From: a virus
IMG/VR virus record: IMGVR_UViG_3300024264_002217
Location: 1-38,230 of that record
Length of the DNA: 38,230 nt
Direction: 5' to 3' (one strand)
Below the pieces are notes generated by a model that made no database searches, was not told where the DNA came from, and worked only from the letters and a program-made list of their open reading frames with translations. The position numbers were made by a program, and so were the translations under genes. Positions 1-29,394 of the stretch are shown in pieces (the first letter of the stretch is position 1; every line of letters begins with the position of its first letter).

Positions 1-120
1 GTGAGTAGTACCAAGAGGATAGCCTGGTCCCATGTCTTTAGTAGCTATAAGGCCAAGGCCATGAAGTGAACTCTTGTCAATAGTAATACAAGAAGGTAAA
101 GGTCTATAGTCAAATTTCAT
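1..120 (-). CDS. SET-domain-like protein, 3' end cut by the window edge
   Basis: The first 40 codons of a gene that continues past the left edge. The visible N-terminus contains SSLHGLGLIATKDM, which resembles the opening strand of SET domains (a small residue, hGlGl, fAt, then a charged residue and a turn before the cofactor site), followed by GYPLGTTH. Known SET proteins transfer methyl groups from SAM to protein lysines, and short stand-alone SET proteins occur in phages. The catalytic NHS and GxY motifs would lie outside the window, so the family call rests on the N-terminal motif only. The ATG lies 1 nt after the TGA of the zinc-finger gene, so the two are probably cotranslated from the promoter near position 620-648. 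Confidence 0.5.
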   Translation of the reverse strand, partial: MKFDYRPLPSCITIDKSSLHGLGLIATKDMGPGYPLGTTH

Positions 121-121
121 A

Positions 122-352
122 TCATCCTTTATATAAGTTACTACCCCAACCTACTCTCTGATCCATCTTTCTAATAGTAGTAGCAGCAGAGCTATCTTTT
201 ATTATCTCAGTTTCAGCATACTCAGTCTTTCCAGAAATAATATTCCTAACATACCAAGCATTAGTAGTTGAACACTTTACACAAGTCTTAGTAGAAGGTA
301 AAGCTTTTATCCTAAGAGGATTTATATCCTCAGCACATTTACTACACTTCAT
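122..352 (-). CDS. Small DksA/TraR-like zinc-finger protein
   Basis: A 76-residue protein with a four-cysteine zinc finger at its N-terminus: C3-x2-C6, then about 17 residues including INPLRIKALPST, then C24-x2-C27. This matches the DksA/TraR C4 pattern (CxxC, I..RL.A.P....C..C). DksA-type proteins bind the RNA polymerase secondary channel; TraR-like plasmid and phage versions have only a short helix plus the finger. Here the finger is at the N-terminus and a 48-residue polar tail follows, so the coiled-coil with its acidic tip is missing. A zinc-binding role is well supported. RNA polymerase binding is only an inference. The ATG overlaps the end of the upstream gene by 11 nt. Confidence 0.6.
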   Translation of the reverse strand: MKCSKCAEDINPLRIKALPSTKTCVKCSTTNAWYVRNIISGKTEYAETEIIKDSSAATTIRKMDQRVGWGSNLYKG

Positions 353-593
353 TTGCTTCCATAATAGAGTTAATATCTTCTCTACTCTGCCATCCTCTTA
401 CATCATCTTCACCATCAACTAATACTTCAAAAGAAACTACTTCTTCTGGTTTAGAGATAGGTGAATTAGGGGTAGAGTATAATCCTGCTCCAGCAACAAC
501 TGATATTACTCTACCGTTATTAAACCGATGCTTAGCCATAATACCACCTCCGATAGGATGATCAACAAATACTAAGTTTTTAAAACTTGCCAT
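342..593 (-). CDS. Conserved-looking small phage protein of unknown function
   Basis: An 83-residue protein I cannot assign to a named family. The central part (MAKHRFNNGRVISVVAGAGLY...) reads like a compact beta-rich domain, and the C-terminal half is acidic with VSFEVLVDGEDDVRGWQ. No signal peptide, membrane segment or cysteine motif is present. It is the first gene after the promoter at 620-648, and its ATG directly follows the leader AAAAAGGTT. An internal Met at residue 19 (MAKHRF) is an alternative start, but the upstream ATG fits the conserved leader better. The 3' end overlaps the zinc-finger gene by 11 nt. Confidence 0.6.
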   Translation of the reverse strand: MASFKNLVFVDHPIGGGIMAKHRFNNGRVISVVAGAGLYSTPNSPISKPEEVVSFEVLVDGEDDVRGWQSREDINSIMEANEV

Positions 594-619
594 AACCTTT
601 TTATTTTTATTTATACTTA

Positions 620-648
620 AATATACGAACTTTATCTCTGTTACGCAA
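620..648 (-). promoter_or_regulatory. Sigma70-type promoter P1
   Basis: On the minus strand: TTGCGT (643-648), a 17-bp spacer, TATATT (620-625), with TTCG just before the -10. The -35 overlaps the GTT GCG TAA stop region of the gene at 641-1030. The start codon of the 83-residue protein lies 27 nt downstream of the -10. Spacing and sequence match nine other sites in the window. Confidence 0.75.
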
Positions 649-1030
649 CTAAATCCTTGTAATATCTTACACCATTTTCAGATATAAACTTGTATGCCTC
701 TTGAACTTCTTTATGATCATACTTACGCATTTCTGTAATACCGTTAAGTTTTTCTTCAAACCATTCATTATGGAAAAAATGTTTACCGTCTTTATTTACA
801 TAATTATTATCCGGGAACTTATCTTTTATAGTTGTAAAGAGTCTATCTTCTGCTTCTTTTGCTTCTTCTTCAGTTTTAAACCATGAAGATTTTCTGATCT
901 TAAACTCAGTAAGACCGTGCTTTAAAATATCGTACTTAAAACGTTCCATTACATCTGCCTTTGATGTAATACCAGCTTTAAAATACTTTGATCCTTTGTA
1001 GTTAAATACTACTAAATATAATTTATGCAT
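641..1030 (-). CDS. GIY-YIG/T5orf172-like small protein
   Basis: A 129-residue protein starting MHKLYLVVFNYKG. The segment YFKAGITSKADVMERF resembles the core of GIY-YIG-like nuclease domains of the T5orf172 type, where a strand ending in K.GiT is followed by an Arg in a helix (here R at ERF). A later YVNKDGKHFFHNEWF could supply the usual acidic or aromatic residues of that fold. Known GIY-YIG enzymes cut DNA; catalytic ability is not demonstrable here. I chose the ATG at 1030, 1 nt after the stop of the Myb-like gene, over an in-frame TTG at 1039. Its last codons double as the -35 box of promoter P1. Confidence 0.45.
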   Translation of the reverse strand: MHKLYLVVFNYKGSKYFKAGITSKADVMERFKYDILKHGLTEFKIRKSSWFKTEEEAKEAEDRLFTTIKDKFPDNNYVNKDGKHFFHNEWFEEKLNGITEMRKYDHKEVQEAYKFISENGVRYYKDLVA

Positions 1031-1031
1031 A

Positions 1032-1334
1032 CTATTCAAATAACATTAACATTTTAGCTTTAGATATAGAACCATCATTAAGTTTAGTATCTACAGCTTT
1101 AATGAACTCCTTAGTCCACTTATCCTTTTTTAATCCTTTAGTCCCTTCAGTAAGAATACTAAGTACCTCTTTAACTCTAAATGCAATAGCATCATAAGTT
1201 CTATCAACCTGCTGAGCATATTGATCTAATACAATAGAGTAATCTTTCCTTGTAATGTTAGCTAAATAGTAATCTAAAAATGAGTTAGCTTCTTCAATAG
1301 ACCAAGCTTCATAATGTCTTTTTGCTTTTTTCAT
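1032..1334 (-). CDS. Myb/SANT-like helix-turn-helix protein
   Basis: A 100-residue basic protein. Residues 10-57 (AWSIEEANSFLDYYLAN ... VDRTYDAIAFRVKEV) follow the pattern of Myb/SANT-like and phage helix-turn-helix domains: a Trp plus acidic first helix, a middle helix, then RT.dAi..R in the recognition helix. A role in DNA binding or transcription is inferred from this alone. A Lys-rich segment (GLKKDKWTKEF) follows. The start is an ATG directly after AAAGGTT, the leader motif also found at 593 and 10394. It sits third in a short operon of small genes driven by P2. Confidence 0.5.
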   Translation of the reverse strand: MKKAKRHYEAWSIEEANSFLDYYLANITRKDYSIVLDQYAQQVDRTYDAIAFRVKEVLSILTEGTKGLKKDKWTKEFIKAVDTKLNDGSISKAKMLMLFE

Positions 1335-1351
1335 AACCTTTATTTTTTTAA

Positions 1352-1537
1352 TTAAACTTCTTGAACTTTTTCGTATCCATCCATACTAGCTCTAGAACCA
1401 TCAGGAGTTTCAACTATTATTTCTCCTGCATCCATAGAGCGGACAACTACTTCATATACTCCCTTATGACCATTCACCATTGAACAATCTAGTAAAACTC
1501 TTTCACCAAGTACACATTCTTTTAATCTCTTAACCAT
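1352..1537 (-). CDS. Small hypothetical protein
   Basis: A 61-residue protein, not recognised. The sequence (LGERVLLDCSMVNGHKGVYEVVVRSMDAGEIIVETPDG) alternates hydrophobic and polar residues with Gly turns, as in a small beta-barrel such as an SH3- or KOW-like fold; that is a guess from pattern only. It is the first gene after promoter P2 (1557-1585) and ends 17 nt before the Myb-like gene. Confidence 0.55.
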   Translation of the reverse strand: MVKRLKECVLGERVLLDCSMVNGHKGVYEVVVRSMDAGEIIVETPDGSRASMDGYEKVQEV

Positions 1538-1556
1538 AGTATTTTATCTTTATTAT

Positions 1557-1585
1557 AATATAAGAAGAATAGTTCAGTTACGCAA
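1557..1585 (-). promoter_or_regulatory. Sigma70-type promoter P2
   Basis: Minus strand: TTGCGT (1580-1585), 17-bp spacer, TATATT (1557-1562), with TTCT before the -10. The -35 sits inside the final codons GTT GCG TAA of the zincin-like gene. It drives the 61-residue protein and the genes after it. Confidence 0.75.
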
Positions 1586-1943
1586 CTAATCTCCAATCTT
1601 TCTCTGCTTTAAAAGCTGCTACTTCATAAGGATGATCTGAGTAAGAGTATCCCATGTTGTAGTATCGAGTCATCCATGAAGGAGACTGTAAGTAGTGTTG
1701 ATATTCATGCACGATAGTCTGAGCTAGATGCTCTGCATCTTCTATATTCTTATAGTATATTACTATTGTATTATAGTCAAAGATATACTCTGCTTCAGGA
1801 TTATCATCTTCAGTATAGACTGAATGTACATAAGGTTGAAACTCTATATAAGGAGTACAGTCATGGTGTTTGCTATGACCATAGACGTCAATACATTTAT
1901 CTAAATATTTCTCAGCTAATCTTCTAGTAGTTCTTAAGTGCAT
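1578..1943 (-). CDS. Small zincin-like metalloprotease-type protein
   Basis: A 121-residue protein carrying VHEYQHYLQ, an HExxH zinc motif, with a downstream HPYEVAAFKAEKDW that supplies a plausible third ligand (Glu in YEVAA), as in gluzincin-like small phage and bacterial proteins. The first half holds paired Tyr/His-rich strands (DYNTIVIYYKNIED). Known members of such families are putative peptidases or their inactive relatives; substrate unknown. There is no signal peptide, so it acts in the cytoplasm if expressed. It starts with ATG after AAAGGTA, driven by P3, and its last codons (LVA, stop) overlap promoter P2. Confidence 0.6.
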   Translation of the reverse strand: MHLRTTRRLAEKYLDKCIDVYGHSKHHDCTPYIEFQPYVHSVYTEDDNPEAEYIFDYNTIVIYYKNIEDAEHLAQTIVHEYQHYLQSPSWMTRYYNMGYSYSDHPYEVAAFKAEKDWRLVA

Positions 1944-1963
1944 TACCTTTATTTTTATATCTA

Positions 1964-1992
1964 AATATAAGAAGAAATTATCAAGTTACCAA
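1964..1992 (-). promoter_or_regulatory. Sigma70-type promoter P3
   Basis: Minus strand: TTGGTA (1987-1992), 17-bp spacer, TATATT (1964-1969), with TTCT before the -10. The -35 lies in the last codons of the radical SAM gene. It drives the zincin-like gene, whose ATG is 21 nt downstream of the -10. Confidence 0.7.
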
Positions 1993-2856
1993 CTTTTCTC
2001 TATATAAATTTGCACTATCTTCTCCTGCCATACACCCATCTACATTACATCCTGCACATGCTGGTAATGCTTTTCTATCTCCTTTTAGTAAAGCTCTTCT
2101 GATAGAGTTATAGTATATGCTATTCCATAGCTCAGGAAAATCTTTTTTATTTACATTTCCTAATCCTATCTGTTTTCTAGACCAATCATTACAGCATAGA
2201 AGAAGATCTCCATTCCAATCTACCATTGCTTTGTACATAGGAAAGAAGCAAGGACGTTTAATACTCTTAACCTCTCCTAATATTCCTCCTCTATTGTTAA
2301 AGTTATAATCATCAAATAAAGTAGATGAACCATCATCATAATGGTCTCTAACTCTATATCCTACATCTGTATTATCTAACTCTTTAAGTTTATTTACTAT
2401 CTTAGTATAGTGTTCATCTCCATCATAACAATCAACTGTTAGGTAAGATAGTTTAGCCTCTATAATATCCTCTAGCTTTAACTTACCGGACATAATATTA
2501 TCTCCATTAGAAGTGATTGTAGTATAAAAATTCTTAGAAAATACTTTTACAATGTCTATTATATTTTTATTGAGAGTAGGTTCACCAAAACCTGTAATAT
2601 GAATATCACCATCATAGTTTGCATTTTTGAGCTGATTAGAAAGTCTTTCAGCTACAGCAACTGGCATATTTAGATTAAGGTTAGGGTATACTTCAGGGTT
2701 ACTTCTAGGGCAGAAGCTACAGGTCCTGTTACAAAGTTCTGTAGGATTTATTTCTACTACAGCAAGACCAGGAAGTAAAGGGTTGGAAATAGTAGCCTGA
2801 TTAATCCTTTTCTTCCGGAAAGTAATGTGTTTTTCAATGTCGAATTTTTCACTCAC
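1981..2856 (-). CDS. Radical SAM protein with SPASM-type C-terminus
   Basis: A 291-residue enzyme. CNRTCSFC at residues 42-49 is the CxxxCxxC motif that binds the SAM-cleaving 4Fe-4S cluster. Further conserved parts are GFGEPTLN (GGE-like motif) and a C-terminal Cys-rich region: RPCFFP, LLLCCNDW, GLGNV and LPACAGCNVDGC, typical of SPASM auxiliary-cluster domains. Relatives modify peptides, sugars or other small substrates, and similar genes occur in polysaccharide loci. The substrate is unknown. The start is GTG at 2856, overlapping the end of the glycosyltransferase gene by 8 nt, so translation is probably coupled. It would need an electron donor; a ferredoxin-reductase-like gene lies at 36.4-37.1 kb. 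Confidence 0.85.
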   Translation of the reverse strand: MSEKFDIEKHITFRKKRINQATISNPLLPGLAVVEINPTELCNRTCSFCPRSNPEVYPNLNLNMPVAVAERLSNQLKNANYDGDIHITGFGEPTLNKNIIDIVKVFSKNFYTTITSNGDNIMSGKLKLEDIIEAKLSYLTVDCYDGDEHYTKIVNKLKELDNTDVGYRVRDHYDDGSSTLFDDYNFNNRGGILGEVKSIKRPCFFPMYKAMVDWNGDLLLCCNDWSRKQIGLGNVNKKDFPELWNSIYYNSIRRALLKGDRKALPACAGCNVDGCMAGEDSANLYREKLVT

Positions 2857-3538
2857 TAAACATTCTATTAAACTCTTTTAACCAGAGGTCAGAGTATTTA
2901 CAATTTCTATAATTTTCAAACCATGGACCTCCTTCTGTAAAATGAAGAAGTTTAGGAGTACCTTCAGTATACCAATCAGTTAACCAGTTCCATTCATAAG
3001 AGAGAGAACCTATTAAAGAATCATCTAGCCAATTAAACCTATGTAAATGGGCTCCTGTTGTCTCTTCATTATTGATATATTCAACTGTGAGTTGTTTGTT
3101 ATATAAATGACTATTATTCCATAACATTACTGAACTCCAATTTTTTCTAGGGTACTGAGTTTGAACTCTACCGTCCATCTTATATTTAAATAGCGGCTTA
3201 TATTCATGCTTAACTACTTGAATAGCATACTCTAAGCGATTTTGTTCAATTAATTTAAGAGGATCATCTAGAAATAAAGTATCACAGTCAACAAATAAAG
3301 AGGTACCTTTAAAATCTGATAAAAAAGGAACTAAGAATCTAGAAAAAGTAAATTCAGTTGATCCTAATTTATCTTCTCCTCTCCAATAATGCCCATCTTT
3401 TCTTAACTCTTCTAATTTAAGAGGTATTATTTCTATTTTAGAGATATCTGAACATTGGGTTAGTATAGAGTTCTTACATACTTGATATGCTATATCTTCT
3501 CTAGAATCATAACCTATAAAAATTTTATACTTTAACAC
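2849..3538 (-). CDS. GT-A fold glycosyltransferase (GT8-like)
   Basis: A 229-residue protein starting MLKYKIFIGYDSRED, the usual first strand of GT8-like enzymes. LFVDCDTLFLDDP at residues 81-93 contains the DxD motif (D84, D86) that holds the metal and the nucleotide sugar. Late HLHRFNWLDDSLIG and LLHFTEGGPW fit acceptor-side motifs, including a metal-binding His. It probably adds one sugar to a phage- or host-surface glycan in the cytoplasm. The start is GTG at 3538, overlapping the stop of a 22-codon hydrophobic reading frame. Confidence 0.8.
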   Translation of the reverse strand: MLKYKIFIGYDSREDIAYQVCKNSILTQCSDISKIEIIPLKLEELRKDGHYWRGEDKLGSTEFTFSRFLVPFLSDFKGTSLFVDCDTLFLDDPLKLIEQNRLEYAIQVVKHEYKPLFKYKMDGRVQTQYPRKNWSSVMLWNNSHLYNKQLTVEYINNEETTGAHLHRFNWLDDSLIGSLSYEWNWLTDWYTEGTPKLLHFTEGGPWFENYRNCKYSDLWLKEFNRMFSE

Positions 3539-3600
3539 CCTATAGTTATTATTCCATAGGTTACTAATGCATAAAGAACTATTTCTAAAAATAATTTCAT
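3532..3600 (-). CDS. Possible 22-residue single-pass membrane microprotein
   Basis: The 63 nt between thyA and the glycosyltransferase gene hold a 22-codon frame: ATG starts 1 nt after the TAG of thyA and its TAA overlaps the GTG of the next gene. The peptide (MKLFLEIVLYALVTYG..., ending in IIGC-like hydrophobics) is almost wholly apolar, enough for one membrane helix. The exact fit between neighbours argues for a translated frame, either functional or as a coupling leader. I recognise no family, and at this length chance cannot be excluded. Confidence 0.35.
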   Translation of the reverse strand: MKLFLEIVLYALVTYGIITIGC

Positions 3601-3601
3601 A

Positions 3602-4396
3602 CTAGTTGCTTAATGGTGCTTTTATTGCAGGATGACTCTGATACTTAACAAGCTCTACATCAAAATCTCCTCTGTAAATATCATAGCAGCTTAACTTTAC
3701 TAAAGGGAGATTAAATCCAGACCTATTAACTTGTTTAGCTGCTTGTTTTAAATGATTAGTATATAGATGAACATCTCCAAAGTTTCCTATCAGCTCTCCA
3801 GGCTCTAATCTAGTCTCCTTACATAGTAATAACAGTAACAGACCGTAACTACTAATGTTAAATGGTACTCCTAAGAATAGGTCAGCACTACGTTGATTCC
3901 ACATCAGAGAGAGCTTACCATCTGCTACATAGCATTGGAAAGAATAATGACAAGGAGGTAAAGTCATTTCCTCTAAATCATCTACATTCCAAGCTGATAC
4001 TAAATGCCTTCTACTATCAGGTTCATTAATTAACCCTACTATGAGATTCTCTAATTGATCATACCCATTCCAATCTCTCCATTGCTTTCCATATACAGGT
4101 CCTAACTCTCCATCTGTTCTACCAGACTTTTTATAGTCACCGTCCCATATCTTACAATTGTTATCTTGAAGGTATTTAATATTAGTATCACCTCTAAGGA
4201 ACCATTTTAACTCAGTAACCATAGTTTTAAAAGCTACCTTCTTAGTAGTTAATATAGGAAAGCCTTCTGACATGCTGTGTCTAATTGTAGCTCCAAAGGT
4301 AGAAAGAGTACCGGTACCAGTTCTATCTTTTTTTGCTATACCATTCTCTAATACGTTCTGTAAGAGCTTTTGATATTGCCTATCTAAATTATTCAT
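3602..4396 (-). CDS. thyA: Thymidylate synthase ThyA
   Basis: 264 residues, the same length as E. coli ThyA. It converts dUMP plus methylene-tetrahydrofolate to dTMP and dihydrofolate. Visible hallmarks: RTGTGT near residue 25 (phosphate loop), WFLRGDTNIKYL, WDGD, GPVYGKQWR, the catalytic Cys149 in TLPPCHYSFQ, the substrate-binding RSADLFLGVPFN, and a C-terminal HPAIKAPLSN. All key residues look intact. It starts with ATG at 4396, 7 nt after the SGNH gene. In phages this enzyme boosts thymidine supply for DNA synthesis; DUF1599 at 35 kb may belong to the same nucleotide theme. Confidence 0.97.
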   Translation of the reverse strand: MNNLDRQYQKLLQNVLENGIAKKDRTGTGTLSTFGATIRHSMSEGFPILTTKKVAFKTMVTELKWFLRGDTNIKYLQDNNCKIWDGDYKKSGRTDGELGPVYGKQWRDWNGYDQLENLIVGLINEPDSRRHLVSAWNVDDLEEMTLPPCHYSFQCYVADGKLSLMWNQRSADLFLGVPFNISSYGLLLLLLCKETRLEPGELIGNFGDVHLYTNHLKQAAKQVNRSGFNLPLVKLSCYDIYRGDFDVELVKYQSHPAIKAPLSN

Positions 4397-4403
4397 TCTA
4401 TAG

Positions 4404-4991
4404 TTAAATTATTGGTTTGGTTATAATATTATTATAAATATTCATAGCATAATTATAGTTTCCCATTTTACCCAAATGCCATTTATCAATTCCTCGTGGG
4501 TATTTTTGTAAATAATCTTTAGTAAAGTCAATATCAAATGTAGTTAAAGCAGTGATATCGAAATAGTATTTAAACTCAGAAGATACTAATAGGTTGATTG
4601 CGTTGATTCCCTTATCTTTTAAATATAGATTGACTTGATTAACTATAGTTTTGTTATCGAATCTTTCACTGTATTTAGTATGAAAATCTTTAAACCAAAC
4701 TTCACTTCTTCCCTTACCCCAAATGTTTATCAAACCAGTGTCTCTTTTTTTATCACGAAAAAAGTGATACCTATCAGAATATGTCCACATTATAATAACT
4801 GTATCATTTAATTTAAATGAGAAGTTAAATACATTATGTTGTATGCTCCTATTACTTGCTCCTGGACTGCCTAGATTAATTAACTCTTTGTCAAGCTTAT
4901 TAGAAAGCACTGCAGGCCAAGATTCCCTAGAAGGATTTGATACTCCCTCACAATAAGTATGACTACAGCCTAGCGTAATAAGTCTACTCAC
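4404..4991 (-). CDS. SGNH/GDSL-type hydrolase-like protein
   Basis: A 195-residue protein whose start LITLGCSHTYCEG matches block I of SGNH enzymes with GCS in place of GDS (candidate nucleophile S10). Block II is NLGSPGASN (39-47), a block-III-like strand is VIIMWTYSDR, and IDKWHLG near the C-terminus gives the Asp/His pair of block V (H172). Such enzymes are often O-acetyl esterases or transferases on carbohydrates. The same four blocks occur in three genes at 10.4-13.0 kb and, degenerate, at 13.6-14.4 kb. It starts with GTG overlapping the TGA of the upstream glycosyltransferase gene. Confidence 0.7.
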   Translation of the reverse strand: MSRLITLGCSHTYCEGVSNPSRESWPAVLSNKLDKELINLGSPGASNRSIQHNVFNFSFKLNDTVIIMWTYSDRYHFFRDKKRDTGLINIWGKGRSEVWFKDFHTKYSERFDNKTIVNQVNLYLKDKGINAINLLVSSEFKYYFDITALTTFDIDFTKDYLQKYPRGIDKWHLGKMGNYNYAMNIYNNIITKPII

Positions 4992-5725
4992 AATACATTT
5001 TTCTGAATATTAGAATTTAGTTTAGTCCAAAAACTATCAACCCTATCGTACTGGTGGTAAATATAGTATTCTTTTTTAGTATCCCAAGCTGTGTCAGATA
5101 AATTAATTACATAATTACTATCGGTAGCTTTGTAATTATACTTACTGTATGCAAGTATGTTAAATGCCATTTGGTCTACTGTACTATTTTTACTGGTATT
5201 AAATTTACTGAAAGCTTTTGATTGGAATGTATAATCAAATGTATCTTTAAACAAAGAAATAATAGTCTCATTTTTACCTAAGACTACACCAGCACATAGA
5301 TGATGTCTACTTTTAATTTTATTATACTCAGAAGGATACTTCTCTAGCATTTCCTTGGTAGCCCATTCGTTATCTGAGAGTGGGTAATCCCCGTCAATGC
5401 CTATATGTAAATCACTTGAACCATACAACTCAGGATTCTTATGAAAGTAAACATCCCTACAGTCCACACTTAACACTTGTTCTGAAGTATGGTACTTTAA
5501 AAGAACATCTGATATATCTTTAAATCTTTTTGTAACAACATGAATATTATCTAAATCTTTTTGAAAAACAATCCAGCCATTGGAAGTTAAGTACTGTTTA
5601 GTAAGATTATCACACTCATATACAACCATTAACTTTTTACCTGTATACCCTGTGTTATTTAAAGAACTTACAAAATTATAAAGATTAGCTGCTGTATAAT
5701 TATAACATGATGATACAACAATCAT
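4988..5725 (-). CDS. GT-A glycosyltransferase-like protein with DxRD motif
   Basis: A 245-residue protein. VLSVDCRDVYFHKNPELY (about 84-101) matches the D-x-RDVxF-x-xxP motif of a family of predicted nucleotide-sugar transferases, where the aspartates bind the metal. HHLCAGVVLGK and STVDQMAFN follow in the order seen in that family (acceptor loop and catalytic Asp). The N-terminus MIVVSSCYNYTAANLYNFVSSL is the expected Rossmann strand, with no signal peptide. It overlaps the SGNH gene by 4 nt (GTGA), suggesting the two act on one glycan. The sugar is unknown. Confidence 0.7.
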   Translation of the reverse strand: MIVVSSCYNYTAANLYNFVSSLNNTGYTGKKLMVVYECDNLTKQYLTSNGWIVFQKDLDNIHVVTKRFKDISDVLLKYHTSEQVLSVDCRDVYFHKNPELYGSSDLHIGIDGDYPLSDNEWATKEMLEKYPSEYNKIKSRHHLCAGVVLGKNETIISLFKDTFDYTFQSKAFSKFNTSKNSTVDQMAFNILAYSKYNYKATDSNYVINLSDTAWDTKKEYYIYHQYDRVDSFWTKLNSNIQKNVL

Positions 5726-5964: not shown

Positions 5965-6507
5965 TTATATTACTGTTTTATTATTATTATAGAACCATGT
6001 TGCTAGAGAATATCTGGTTCCTTTCGTTATTTTCTTTACTGCGTGAAATGTCTTAGCAGGAAACAAATATAACGTTCCAGTCTTTTTTTCAAACTGATGT
6101 ATTTTTCTTTTACTATCTCTGTATAGAAGCTCTCCTCCTTCATATGATTCGTTTAAGCTTATAAGTCCGGTATAATATTCTCCCATCCTAGTAACATCAT
6201 TATGCCAGTTAAAATGATCTAATTCATTATACTTTATAAAATGGAAAGCCTCATACTTGTCTATAGAATGGAAATCAACATTTAACTTAATACTCAAATA
6301 ATGAATCATATCATATCTGATAGGCATATCTATAAAGTAGCAAATATCTGATTTTCTATCTCTATCTTTAATATCATACCTTTCATTAACATTACCATCG
6401 CTATCTACAAACTCCATATAATTAACAGGTTCAGCCCTATGTTCATTAGCGTCAATTATATCTTGACACTGTTTTTCTGATAAGAAGTTTTCTTTAGTCC
6501 AAATCAT
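5965..6507 (-). CDS. 2-oxoglutarate/Fe(II)-dependent oxygenase (prolyl 4-hydroxylase type)
   Basis: A 180-residue enzyme of the double-stranded beta-helix class. WHNDV gives the HxD iron ligands (H102, D104), TFHAV the distal His (H155), and TRYSLATWFY the Arg (R165) that binds 2-oxoglutarate; GLISLNESYEGGELLY is the usual strand between them. The family hydroxylates proline or other side chains, or small molecules. The substrate here is unknown, but the neighbours (sulfotransferase, glycosyltransferases, SGNH) suggest decoration of a surface polymer or virion protein. Its ATG overlaps the TGA of the sulfotransferase gene (ATGA). Confidence 0.9.
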   Translation of the reverse strand: MIWTKENFLSEKQCQDIIDANEHRAEPVNYMEFVDSDGNVNERYDIKDRDRKSDICYFIDMPIRYDMIHYLSIKLNVDFHSIDKYEAFHFIKYNELDHFNWHNDVTRMGEYYTGLISLNESYEGGELLYRDSKRKIHQFEKKTGTLYLFPAKTFHAVKKITKGTRYSLATWFYNNNKTVI

Positions 6508-7037
6508 ATTACAACAGAAGCTTTTTTGCCTCTCAATTTTCGAATAGGGTCAAAATATTCTAGATCTAATTTAATATCTTTATCTTGTAAAGATTTATTA
6601 GAGTATACATCTTCATAGTAGTCTATATTAATACCAATTCTGTTAGATAAATCTTCTAAGGAATTACTCCAATCAGTCATTTTATCAGTAAAGTAAGGAA
6701 TATGTTTCTTATTAAAATCTGATACTTCATTCCATACTGTGAGACTGTTGGAATGGTTATCTAATCTCATTGCAACAAAAGACTCTGTAGCAGCTACTAA
6801 ATCTCGTCTTGAAAGTATAACTACTTTTTCAAAATTTTTACTGAAGTTTATCAATTCCTCCATCTCTAATCTGTATATTATCATTTTACAGACTGTACTT
6901 TTATGGTAACGGGAATAGATATTAGGACTTTTATGGAAAGGTTCGAATAGTCCTTTAAGTTTATTTCGTTTTGAAATACTAAATAACAAGTTAGAAGAGC
7001 CACTTCTAGGAAGAGCCACTATCAAACAATTTTTCAT
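6504..7037 (-). CDS. Sulfotransferase-like P-loop protein
   Basis: A 177-residue protein starting MKNCLIVALPRSGSSNLLF; PRSGSS at 10-15 is the 5'-phosphosulfate loop of sulfotransferases. FEPFHKSP and VVILSRRDLVAATESFV fit the later strands, the second containing the Arg and Ser that bind the 3'-phosphate of PAPS. It is short (typical carbohydrate sulfotransferases have 250-300 residues), so the acceptor domain is reduced. The likely role is transfer of sulfate to a glycan in the cytoplasm, by analogy. It overlaps the 2OG oxygenase gene by 4 nt and starts 14 nt after the 44-residue gene. Confidence 0.75.
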   Translation of the reverse strand: MKNCLIVALPRSGSSNLLFSISKRNKLKGLFEPFHKSPNIYSRYHKSTVCKMIIYRLEMEELINFSKNFEKVVILSRRDLVAATESFVAMRLDNHSNSLTVWNEVSDFNKKHIPYFTDKMTDWSNSLEDLSNRIGINIDYYEDVYSNKSLQDKDIKLDLEYFDPIRKLRGKKASVVI

Positions 7038-7191: not shown

Positions 7192-9114
7192 TTATTTGTT
7201 ATGTACTACTGTTTTTTCAGCTATGTAAGTATTTGTTCCAGGAACAGTAAAGTTATATACTGGGGTTTCATCAGGTGTAATGTAGAATTTAAAGTCTTGA
7301 ATTTCACTCCATATACCGTCAATTAATACCTTACTTCCTCTTTCTAAAATCTTAATATCTTTTTGTTCAGATAACCAAGGTTCTTGCTCTTGTATAGGAG
7401 ACATTGCTCTCCAACCATCTTCAGTATAAAAAGGATGCTCTGGTGTAAACCTTAATCCAGCTTCTTCTCCATCTATTATTAAATCGAATACTCCACCATC
7501 TAAATAGCCTAATTTAAGACAAGCATCTTTATGATCACCCACCGTATGTCTATGGTCGATAGCTGAAACTTCTCTAGTAACTTTTCTTTGTCTCTCAATA
7601 TCGTAAGAGTAAACTATATCTCCTTCTTTAATGTCTTCTATATTTACTTCACCATTAGGAGTGTCGATCTTAGTACCAGCAAGGAAGCATGTTGTATAAG
7701 GAAACCATCTACCTGCTCCCATGTAGTTGTGTAGTACTACATTAGATCCTGAAAGAACATATGTATCTACGCTTTCAAGGTCAAGGTCTATTCCTTTTGC
7801 TTCTTCTAGATTATCATAAACTATAATGGAGTGAGATGCTATTTTAACTTGATTACCGTTACTATCATAAGCAAAATCTCCTTCATCTAATTCATAAGCT
7901 TTTCTAAATTTAATAACGTCTTCTGTTTCATCATAAGAAGCCATAAAGACTGAAGAACCTATATAGGATTCGTCTCCAGTTTCCCAGGTAAATTTTCTCA
8001 TTACCCAGTCTTTATTAGTCCTTACGCCAGCAGAGTCAAGGATAGAAGATGATATGTGGGAACCTGAAGGAAGGGTTGAACCAGGAATCTGCCATATGTC
8101 TAAGATTTCAAAGTTATCTGAATCAGGTGATCCTGAAATAAAGTATGAAGTATATAAAGCACCAGAACCAGTAACAACTGAATCTGCTCTAACTCCTTCT
8201 CCTGAAGCACTTAATATATAAGTTCCACCTCCAACACCTTTAGCTACTTTTTCAAAATTAGTTACGAATTCAAATTTGTGTTTATTATTTACTTCAAAAG
8301 TAACATCACTTCCGGAATAACTACTTGTAGTAAGAAGAGTAGGAGCTTCTAATAGAGCATCTATTTCATATTCTCCAAGAAATCCTACTTCTAAATCTGA
8401 ACCATATACTATATTAACACTTCTAATTGATCTAGCATGTGAAGATGATATACTATTCTGATAGTTAGTAATAAATGTATCGTCAGCTAGAACGTGAGAT
8501 TTAAATTCATTTATTCTATAATCTGATCCTGTTTCAGGAAGACCTAGTTTATAAAATCTAAGGTTACCTTTGTTAACTTTCATTTTAAAACCTCCTTTTG
8601 AAGCAAAGTCTGGAACATTAGGTCCATTAAACGAAGATGATAAGCTATCAATCACTCCATAAGTAGAGGATGAATGATATAAAGGAACAACAGATGCTAG
8701 ATCATTATTTCCATAAAATAAATCAAATAAAGCTAATTCTGATTTAGCATACACAGAATCAAATGTTGCTGACTCATCATAAGCTAATCTTAGAATAAAT
8801 TTATCATCTGCATCATCAACTGTCTCAGGATAAATAGTACAATCATCTACTTGAACTTTATTAAAGCTAGTAATAAAAGTTGCACTACTTGAAATATAAG
8901 TCTCCATGGACTTAACAAAAAAGTCTTGAAAGTTTTTATAAACTACGGTTAAGTTTGTAATATTGCTTCCTGATAGTATATCTTTTAATGGTTCAAAACT
9001 TAATCTTTCGGATATAATATTATCACCGATAGCAGTATCAGTATTAATTTCTAGTAACTTTGGATTATTAGAATCATCTATTACGAAATCAGCTGAAAAT
9101 AGGGTACCCTTCAT
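7192..9114 (-). CDS. Virion-type protein with ATP-grasp-like N-terminus and C-terminal self-cleaving Hint domain
   Basis: 640 residues. The last 165 form a complete Hint (hedgehog/intein) domain: Cys476 in CFLAGTKIDTPNG (block A), FTPEHPF with T557 and H560 (block B), VYNFTVPGTNTYIAE, and His638-Asn639 followed by one Lys and stop. There is no homing endonuclease and no C-extein, as in bacterial intein-like or hedgehog-type domains that cleave off or activate the preceding part. Residues 8-27 (ADFVIDDSNNPKLLEINTDT) resemble the D...E-x-N metal site of ATP-grasp ligases, and KFILRLAYDESA (105-116) resembles their ATP-binding Lys strand; this order would mean a circular permutation. The middle (200-470) is rich in Ser/Gly (SGSGAL, SGSHISSS) like phage structural proteins. 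The Hint call is firm; the ATP-grasp reading is an inference. Confidence 0.8.
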   Translation of the reverse strand: MKGTLFSADFVIDDSNNPKLLEINTDTAIGDNIISERLSFEPLKDILSGSNITNLTVVYKNFQDFFVKSMETYISSSATFITSFNKVQVDDCTIYPETVDDADDKFILRLAYDESATFDSVYAKSELALFDLFYGNNDLASVVPLYHSSSTYGVIDSLSSSFNGPNVPDFASKGGFKMKVNKGNLRFYKLGLPETGSDYRINEFKSHVLADDTFITNYQNSISSSHARSIRSVNIVYGSDLEVGFLGEYEIDALLEAPTLLTTSSYSGSDVTFEVNNKHKFEFVTNFEKVAKGVGGGTYILSASGEGVRADSVVTGSGALYTSYFISGSPDSDNFEILDIWQIPGSTLPSGSHISSSILDSAGVRTNKDWVMRKFTWETGDESYIGSSVFMASYDETEDVIKFRKAYELDEGDFAYDSNGNQVKIASHSIIVYDNLEEAKGIDLDLESVDTYVLSGSNVVLHNYMGAGRWFPYTTCFLAGTKIDTPNGEVNIEDIKEGDIVYSYDIERQRKVTREVSAIDHRHTVGDHKDACLKLGYLDGGVFDLIIDGEEAGLRFTPEHPFYTEDGWRAMSPIQEQEPWLSEQKDIKILERGSKVLIDGIWSEIQDFKFYITPDETPVYNFTVPGTNTYIAEKTVVHNK

Positions 9115-27956: not shown

Positions 27957-28715
27957 TTAAATTAAGTTTTTTGGTTCTATGTCATGTAAAACTCCTTCTA
28001 CATTGTATTTACTAGCATCTAAAATATAATTTTTCTTAAATGTTTTCCAACTAGAATTATAACCTTGGGACTTTGGGTATGCGGTAGCTAGGTAATTTCC
28101 AGCTGCTTTATTATTAGATTTAAAAGGAATATTAAATAGCCTAAAAATATCTTCTTTAGTCCCAAAAAAGAATAAATCATCAAAGTACCATTCTTCTGGA
28201 GATTGTAAAATAACTTTCTTATTAAATATATCTTCTGTATTGTAAGGAATCTTTTTAAGATCTTTCAACGCTTTTGTAATCCAATTGTTCTTATTATAAA
28301 GTTGGTAGTCTACTCTACATTTTAAGATATAATCAAATTCCATCTCTTGGGTATAGCCTTTTTTAATTCCTTCTAATGTAGAATATATTTGAATATTAAC
28401 ATTAGAGTCAAAGTTTTCCATGTCAATATAACCAGGATAACAAAAACTAAGTTGATTTAATAGATCTCTGTAATATGGGGAGTTACCGTTCTTTTTATCA
28501 ATTCTTACATAACTACAGGGAAAATGGACATTACTTGATTCAACGCCAGGTATAAATTTACTGTAGGTACTGACTACTATATTGTGTAACCCGATAGAAT
28601 TTAGATAATTAATATTATCATACATCTGAGGTGTATTTAATGGTCGTCCATCAAGTACTACTAATATTTCAGTACCATCGTATACGTAATTTTCTCTTGT
28701 ATTATGAGTTTCCAT
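27957..28715 (-). CDS. WavE-like lipopolysaccharide-synthesis protein
   Basis: 252 residues from the ATG at 28715 (METHNTRENYVYDG). An ATG 13 codons earlier is in frame but lies inside the upstream gene. EILVVLDGRPLN opens the fold, DYILKCRVDYQLYNKNNW holds the K-x-R-x-D of WavE-type glycosyltransferases, and DDLFFFGTKEDIFRLF is a further conserved part. WavE-type proteins act in core polysaccharide synthesis. Identity is low; a generic GT-A protein is an alternative. It overlaps the cytidylyltransferase-like gene by 14 nt. Confidence 0.45.
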   Translation of the reverse strand: METHNTRENYVYDGTEILVVLDGRPLNTPQMYDNINYLNSIGLHNIVVSTYSKFIPGVESSNVHFPCSYVRIDKKNGNSPYYRDLLNQLSFCYPGYIDMENFDSNVNIQIYSTLEGIKKGYTQEMEFDYILKCRVDYQLYNKNNWITKALKDLKKIPYNTEDIFNKKVILQSPEEWYFDDLFFFGTKEDIFRLFNIPFKSNNKAAGNYLATAYPKSQGYNSSWKTFKKNYILDASKYNVEGVLHDIEPKNLI

Positions 28716-29394
28716 TAGTATAAAGTGTTTCAGCAACTTTAAATTGCCATTCATGGTCTATATCGAAAGCTTCTAATTCTGGTATTGGAAACAATTTAAT
28801 GCCTCCTGGTTCAGTAAAGTCCCCCATGTACTTATAATCTTTAATAAGATCCATAGGTGAAGCATACAGTACATGAGCTGCTTCGTAAGTAGGTTCTACT
28901 GCTTTAGTATTAAGAAGAGTTTGACCTTCAGGCCATGGAGTAACCATAATTCCTTCTTTATTCCAATAGTATTGTTTTTTTTCTATTACTGCAAATAAGT
29001 TATCTTCTTCTTGTTCTATAAACTTTTTAACAAATGAGTCTATAGTTTCTACCTTTAACAGAGGGTTACAGCCGCTAATTATTACGACATATTTATATGG
29101 GAGTTTATCATGCCATTCAAATATCTTAGTTATGTCACTATCGTTATTAGCTGATTCAAAACTTCTTTGAAAGGTTCTAATGTTTCTTTTAATATTAGCT
29201 TCATAAAATAATTCCTCTTCGTATACTGAAGCGTATATTTGATCAGAAGGTATAATAGATGATGATAGAAGTTTATCCAAAACTATACCAAACAGATTTG
29301 AATCTGCAAAATGTCTCAGCATTTTGTTTGGTACTCTTTGACTATTAAGTCTAGCCTGTACTATAAAAACCGTATTGTCTAATTTTGATATCAC
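28702..29394 (-). CDS. CMP-sugar synthetase-like cytidylyltransferase (NeuA/SpsF type)
   Basis: 230 residues. VFIVQARLNSQRVPNKMLRHF is the nucleotide-binding start of CMP-sugar synthetases and SpsF (AR..S.R.p.K), ISGCNPLL the metal region, and LEAFDIDHEWQFKVAETL the C-terminal D-x-D-h-x-W motif. The known reaction couples CTP with a sialic-type acid to give CMP-sugar. With NeuB and a GT42-like transferase nearby this would complete activation and transfer of a nonulosonate. The start is GTG, with the upstream TAG overlapping it (TAGTG). Confidence 0.75.
   Translation of the reverse strand: MISKLDNTVFIVQARLNSQRVPNKMLRHFADSNLFGIVLDKLLSSSIIPSDQIYASVYEEELFYEANIKRNIRTFQRSFESANNDSDITKIFEWHDKLPYKYVVIISGCNPLLKVETIDSFVKKFIEQEEDNLFAVIEKKQYYWNKEGIMVTPWPEGQTLLNTKAVEPTYEAAHVLYASPMDLIKDYKYMGDFTEPGGIKLFPIPELEAFDIDHEWQFKVAETLYTNGNS

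Follow-up and report, generated by a model that had tools for sequence, protein, structure and literature searches.

The locus and its core gene

The window, i.e., the whole stretch of DNA that was analysed, is a 38,230-base virus record from IMG/VR. It encodes on its minus strand a protein of 640 residues, here called the core protein, in which an ATP-grasp-like domain is followed by two Hint domains. All structures used in this study are predictions, and the full-length AlphaFold2 model, built from the family alignment, has a mean pLDDT of 85. The features of the core gene are listed below, with the basis of each assignment in brackets.

7192..9114, minus strand: core gene, fusion of an ATP-grasp, a degenerate Hint and an active-type Hint domain, 640 aa, ATG start (ORF call, model, family alignment)
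8332..9114, minus strand: residues 1-261, predicted glutathione-synthetase/YgiC-type permuted ATP-grasp lacking the N-terminal substrate lobe (model, Foldseek, VIA-align)
9043..9090, minus strand: putative metal-site motif D9...E22-x-N24 (invariant in 51 sequences; hhalign with YgiC/YjfC/Gss)
8767..8802, minus strand: KFILRLAYDESA strand, residues 105-116, with R109 invariant and K105 near-invariant (family alignment)
7726..8238, minus strand: first Hint domain, residues 293-463, Gly293 in place of Cys1, terminal H462-N463 retained (profile A6 against PDB sequences, model)
7690..7725, minus strand: linker YMGAGRWFPYTT, residues 464-475, between the Hint domains, at the site of the Cys/Trp/Tyr-rich tail of relatives (sequence, alignment)
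7198..7689, minus strand: second Hint domain, residues 476-639, with C476, T557-x-x-H560 and H638-N639 (Pfam, model, sequence)
7195..7197, minus strand: Lys640, the sole residue past the Hint domain, i.e., the +1 position (sequence)

The N-terminal ATP-grasp-like domain

The preliminary description of this DNA likened two stretches of the ORF, ADFVID...LLEINTDT and KFILRLAYDESA, to the metal site and the ATP-binding lysine strand of ATP-grasp enzymes in permuted order. Both motifs are present in the ORF, and the check for an N-terminal fold unrelated to ATP-grasp, once run, returned a match to the glutathione synthetase (GS)/YgiC type. The model of residues 1-261 (AlphaFold2, mean pLDDT 88) was matched by Foldseek at E ≤ 4e-5 only to glutathione synthetases, GSS effectors, homoglutathione synthetase and YgiC (6e-7 for 5oet, 1.9e-6 for 3kak and 6e-6 for 7uk8), and the next match after this ATP-grasp set, at E 0.015, was to unrelated chains. 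The best 27 rows of VIA-align were GS, GSS, YgiC, YjfC, GspS, trypanothione synthetase (TryS), Cp1B and related putative enzymes, with Z values of 7 to 10.6 and alignments spanning the entire domain (for 1m0w, Z 10.6 with an rmsd of 4.8 over 224 aa); non-permuted ATP-grasps reached a Z of at most 5. The family profile A5 searched against PDB sequences retrieved no ATP-grasp, only a chance match to S100-A9, and the kinship is visible by fold, and by profile only in direct comparison with YgiC/YjfC/Gss. In that profile–profile alignment, D9, E22 and N24 superpose on D102, E115 and N117 of YgiC. The fold match and the match of the metal-site motif bear out the proposed ATP-grasp-like N-terminus in permuted order, and residues 1-261 are, as modelled, a GS/YgiC-type permuted ATP-grasp fold.

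Among 51 aligned relatives, with identities down to ~20%, D9, E22, N24, F106, R109, D113, K173 and R231 are invariant. The candidate ATP-binding lysines, chosen by conservation rather than by residue-level superposition, are K173, invariant in the 51 relatives, and K105, which is near-invariant. The Arg that precedes the metal Asp by two residues (R-x-D; R100 in YgiC, R139 in Cp1B) is Ser7 here and Ser/Gly family-wide, and the N-terminal substrate lobe is missing, with residue 1 of the model aligning to residue 119 of GS, 94 of YgiC and 310 of GspS. Cp1B, which belongs to the same fold class, makes amides, and Ala in place of its R139 abolished or strongly reduced activity (PMC12568646). The loss of this Arg together with that of the substrate lobe suggests that ligase activity in the core protein could be altered or gone.

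Two Hint domains at the C-terminus

Direct reading of the sequence gives C476, TPEH at 557-560 and VVHNK at the terminus. Pfam Hint_2 matches above its cut-off at 475-510 (30.6 vs 28.4 bits), as does NCBIfam intein_Cterm at 618-639, and Pfam Intein_splicing (489-639) and PT-HINT (483-590) both fall under theirs. The model of residues 471-640 superposes on Tetrahymena BIL2 (6y75) with Z 21.4 and an rmsd of 1.7 over 145 residues. The earlier reading of a Hint domain with Cys476, T-x-x-H, a terminal His-Asn and one trailing Lys was therefore confirmed by sequence, Pfam, NCBIfam and model. The domain departs from a canonical splicing intein in that the +1 nucleophile and the C-extein are absent, a single Lys following Asn639. 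Its residues point to a BIL-type domain with a complete putative catalytic set, which agrees with the earlier suggestion that it may, in principle, be able to form a thioester at residue 475.

The region before C476 had been described as Ser/Gly-rich and of structural type; this description did not hold, since most of it proved to be another Hint domain, in degenerate form. Its profile A6, compared with PDB sequences, matches the C. thermocellum BIL domain 2lwy at E 2.7e-5, and the model of residues 290-463 superposes on 2lwy with Z 19.0 and an rmsd of 1.4 over 138 residues. This first Hint domain has lost its nucleophile and has retained the His-Asn.

Occurrence and architecture of the family

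Matches to a degenerate DNA pattern written from the KFILRLAYDE(S)A strand were found in 26 viral contigs, most of which code for homologues beginning MKG(T)LFSADF...LLE.NTDT. An alignment-based scan placed homologues at 80 viral-contig loci and neighbour-based scans added more, giving a comparison set of 118 distinct core proteins, some of them cut by contig ends. The family is present in IMG/VR contigs, and the core gene is single-copy in all ten large records (91-326 kb). A T4-type gp23 was found in four of the nine records tested, showing that at least those four phages are T4-like; one gp23 match (G003:C1:95809-97233, L111) has one TAA inside it, which an intervening sequence, a frameshift artefact or a fault in the assembly could explain.

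When 50,697 phage records were searched by tblastn with the complete protein, with the N-terminal part alone and with three relatives, the output was Hint matches, one chance match (E 0.9) or nothing; at tblastn sensitivity, no core homologue was found in cultured phages among these records. A structure search of BFVD gave nothing at E ≤ 0.001. A first scan of bacterial and archaeal genomes found no member of the family, and a second found one, on a contig of an archaeal (Euryarchaeota) MAG (L280), positions 1-5006 of which hold the core gene together with DUF932 and SGNH-like genes resembling those of the window. This contig is probably a misbinned phage. Lookalikes of glycine decarboxylase and of an APS-kinase-like P-loop protein were also seen by eye in phage loci (L035 15698-17416 and L093 13016-13453, respectively).

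The degenerate Hint domain ends in HN in 111 of the 118 core proteins, and in relatives it is followed by up to three Cys-Hint domains in a row (by none in some), separated by spacers of one to about eleven residues. A TxxH-like block B is present in 58 of 65 family Cys-Hint domains. Among the 62 family Hint domains that have the HN, the +1 residue is K/R in 49 and C/S/T in none. BIL domains likewise have a residue other than Cys, Ser or Thr at +1 (PMC7664689), and the family domains are accordingly of the BIL type rather than splicing domains. In the lineage of L003, L006, L040, L055 and L068, the last Hint domain (C-terminal 140 aa) has Cys1, ends VSGLGDN... and has its HN mid-domain rather than at the terminus, which would limit it to the N-terminal step, as in Hedgehog.

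In 68 of the 118 proteins, the architecture is ATP-grasp, Hint and a Cys-rich tail, and an alignment of 20 members with this tail shows C468, C470, C475, G476, C484, C487 and H465-N466 to be invariant. The Cys/Trp/Tyr-rich tail, x-CWCPWxYCGxxCxxxxCPxC, follows the HN of the degenerate Hint domain in L236, L243, L271 and about 65 others; 66 of the 68 proteins have a Lys among their final three residues. A few distant relatives end in an S74-chaperone-like region, with matches to PF13884 (6.5e-4, just under the cut-off), the virion structural family phrog_6121 (3e-12) and the tail fibre family phrog_9942 (1e-3).

Neighbouring enzymes and a shared C-terminal tag

Five neighbours of the core gene in the window bear on what follows.

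6504..7037, minus strand: sulfotransferase-like gene, so named by sequence resemblance only, C-terminus KKASVVI, tag-like (no Pfam match)
5965..6507, minus strand: 2OG-Fe(II) oxygenase, C-terminus NNNKTVI, tag (PF13640, 1.4e-12)
4988..5725, minus strand: gene with no Pfam match, C-terminus IQKNVL, tag (sequence)
4404..4991, minus strand: SGNH/DUF6071-like gene, C-terminus ITKPII, tag-like (domain search, sequence)
27957..28754, minus strand: WavE-like glycan gene, farther off, C-terminus EPKNLI, tag (domain search, sequence)

All four genes downstream of the core gene end in a hydrophobic tag or a tag-like sequence. Across the family, 2OG-Fe(II) oxygenases lie near the core gene in 35 of 47 lineages, accompanied by sulfotransferase-like, halogenase-like, radical-SAM, SET-like, NodU-like and SGNH-like proteins; several of these names are tentative and given by sequence resemblance, with a Pfam or PHROGs check for some only. 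Immediately upstream of the core gene, many lineages encode a small protein that is rich in Cys, probably binds zinc and is often tagged (L088 7612-7941 and its homologues, such as L280 3865-4125).

The C-termini of the neighbours follow a consensus close to K-x-x-K-K-[ST]-L-I, or KK[ST]LI in short form. The strict pattern occurs at the true C-terminus of 189 of 672 non-redundant neighbour ORFs, compared with 8.6 expected from internal positions, and moving the frame inwards by 3 to 15 residues leaves 5 to 9 matches. The patterns were set after inspection of the data, which is partly offset by the inward-shift and internal-position controls and by a separate halogenase set. LI-like C-terminal residues are found in 87 of 96 2OG enzymes, 29 of 30 radical-SAM enzymes and all 14 halogenases, and the tag is absent from housekeeping phage genes (DUF932, thymidylate synthase, ssDNA-binding) in the same loci. 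In the record G003, clear tags cluster within ~5 kb or less of the core gene.

Among the non-redundant halogenase homologues, 49 of 49 carry the LI tag where the core is present and 10 of 51 where it is absent (Fisher p 6.6e-19, ignoring phylogeny); nearly all of these ten are on short contigs. However, the tagged halogenases resemble each other more than they resemble the untagged ones and may be one clade, so that the p value overstates independence. For sulfotransferase-like proteins, 73 of 75 occur with the core and the other two are on contigs under 5 kb, a result that is only supportive, as the set offers no untagged contrast. On the core-bearing contig L280, the halogenase and the oxygenase are untagged and a small protein beside them is tagged. 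The halogenase and 2OG genes examined in the phages HTVC008M and P-SSM2 have no tag.

The tag was also considered as a by-product of the ribosome-binding sites of downstream genes that overlap the tagged ones. ATA is somewhat favoured in tags, and a close downstream gene is commoner for tagged genes; however, the codons vary and the tags persist where the next gene is distant or convergent, so this was rejected as the whole explanation. The varied codons, and the presence of tags where no gene follows closely, point to the peptide level. The tag is common to unrelated enzymes and occurs almost only where the core protein is present. The tag and the domain architecture are solid, and computation also shows the conservation of residues in the metal site and the Hint domains, the single copy of the core gene, the tag enrichment and its association with the core.

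Proposed role and alternatives

Characterised members of the GS/YgiC-type fold turn a carboxylate into an acyl phosphate and then join it to an amine. YgiC activates the carboxylate at the C-terminus of a peptide, and the E. coli enzyme carries the annotation peptide--spermidine ligase. The reading that we favour, while holding it tentatively, is that the core protein is the centre of an undescribed phage protein-modification cluster, and most likely a carboxylate-amine ligase that processes itself and either acts on the tags or is addressed by them. Judging from the conserved residues, C476 would take the acyl group of Thr475 to form a thioester, which, because the +1 residue is Lys, would be resolved by an amine (the Lys640 side chain or another) or by water, with Asn639 cyclising. 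The Hint domain would thus be removed and the ligase part left, possibly capped through its C-terminus. There is precedent for such a step in Tetrahymena BIL2, the nearest Hint domain by fold, which resolves its thioester with lysine to give an isopeptide bond (PMC8616854). The mature ligase would recognise KK[ST]LI-type tags on the oxygenases, halogenases, sulfotransferases and radical-SAM enzymes encoded alongside it and would then either dock the tagged enzymes or join their C-termini to an amine acceptor. Action of the ligase on the tags is proposed from their co-occurrence and from a fold class that handles free carboxylates. The stronger form of this proposal, a conjugation system in which a Hint-matured ATP-grasp ligase covalently joins the C-termini of the tagged enzymes (KK[ST]LI-COOH) to an amine acceptor, we consider unlikely as it stands; if true, it would be a functional parallel to ubiquitin-like conjugation built from unrelated parts.

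The tails of the 68 relatives, whose Cys and HN positions are invariant in the 20 aligned members, could instead be read in terms of a RiPP-like pathway, in which the tagged enzymes modify the Cys/Trp/Tyr-rich segment of 25-30 residues and Asn cyclisation sets it free as the product. On this view, the protein of the window would be a derived form whose peptide has shrunk to YMGAGRWFPYTT between two Hint domains, a domain order like that of intein-based peptide cyclisation. The neighbours include enzymes that would act on Trp and possibly Tyr, and the 2OG enzyme of the window weakly matches a peptide-maturing 2OG model, both of which would fit. However, the tandem-Hint members have only 0-12 residues between their Hint domains and hence no product peptide, and the regular Cys spacing equally fits a zinc- or disulfide-stabilised end, which makes this a somewhat unlikely, though possible, account. 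The lost Arg of R-x-D and the missing substrate lobe, taken with a tag that is strictly C-terminal on many unrelated enzymes, would suit a pseudo-ligase that binds tags non-covalently and gathers the enzymes as a docking scaffold, its Hint domains merely trimming the protein. Such a scaffold would have no need of D9/E22/N24 and K173, invariant in all 51 relatives, and we think it improbable that the core protein acts in this way.

The preliminary description had also called the product a virion protein, and the S74-chaperone-like ends of a few relatives, a domain common to virion and tail-fibre families, are in keeping with a protein associated with the fibre or the capsid, in which the C-terminal modules (S74-like chaperone, Cys-rich end and Hint domains) can replace one another as ends for autoprocessing or assembly, while the enzymes encoded nearby modify virion proteins. 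In HTVC008M, oxygenase and halogenase genes of a comparable kind do sit amid tail, terminase and baseplate genes. However, no structural genes were recognised beside the core in the loci examined, gp23 lies ~56 kb from the core gene in G002 (the one record compared in detail), Pfam and PHROGs give the window protein no S74, structural or fibre domain, and one would not expect a passive virion protein to have an ATP-grasp with an intact metal site. A virion location is thus not supported, and this explanation is quite unlikely. It is likewise distinctly doubtful that the tags are degradation or localisation signals independent of the core, with the co-occurrence reflecting a single phage clade. 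C-terminal hydrophobic tails can act as degrons, and the greater similarity among tagged halogenases would fit one clade; against this, many unrelated enzyme families are tagged in the same loci where DUF932, thymidylate synthase and ssDNA-binding genes are not, and the clear tags of G003 stay close to the core gene.

Comparison with known systems and significance

The core protein shares with GS, YgiC-YjfC and GspS the fold over residues 1-258, the order of elements and the D/E/N metal site, whereas it differs from them in its missing N-terminal substrate lobe, in the Ser/Gly that replaces the R-x-D Arg, in its fusion to Hint domains and in being viral. With BIL domains (Clostridium thermocellum BIL, Tetrahymena BIL2/BUBL1), it has in common the Hint fold, C1, TxxH, the terminal HN and the lack of C/S/T at +1; unlike them, it lacks a C-extein, contains a fused ligase fold, has mostly K/R at +1 and combines one degenerate copy with a tandem of zero to three full ones. 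In the Tetrahymena BUBL loci, where a ubiquitin-like protein is paired with BIL2, the Hint domain does ATP-independent amide chemistry with Lys, a precedent for the step proposed here, although the N-extein of the core is an ATP-grasp rather than a ubiquitin-like fold.

RiPP/graspetide clusters resemble the present loci in having an ATP-grasp, peptide-tailoring enzyme families and, as in relatives of the window protein, a Cys/Trp/Tyr-rich segment. Here, however, the precursor-like tail and the ligase are in one protein, and a tag is carried by the enzymes rather than a leader by the precursor. The marine T4-like phages HTVC008M and P-SSM2 encode related halogenase and 2OG families; in these phages, the genes examined are untagged and tblastn found no core homologue.

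To our knowledge, no known system has this domain combination, tandem Hint arrays and a C-terminal tag tied to one core protein, and our literature searches, which covered open-access papers only, found no paper describing the same combination. The fusion, singled out at the start as the strongest candidate for an undescribed system, has kept that standing, chiefly on account of the tag and of the architecture seen across the family. If the core protein binds or ligates the tag, this would be a novel means of addressing or joining proteins and possibly a ligation tool. It would also assign a definite task to the many genes for oxygenases, halogenases, sulfotransferases and radical-SAM enzymes that marine phages carry and that are usually filed as auxiliary metabolic genes.
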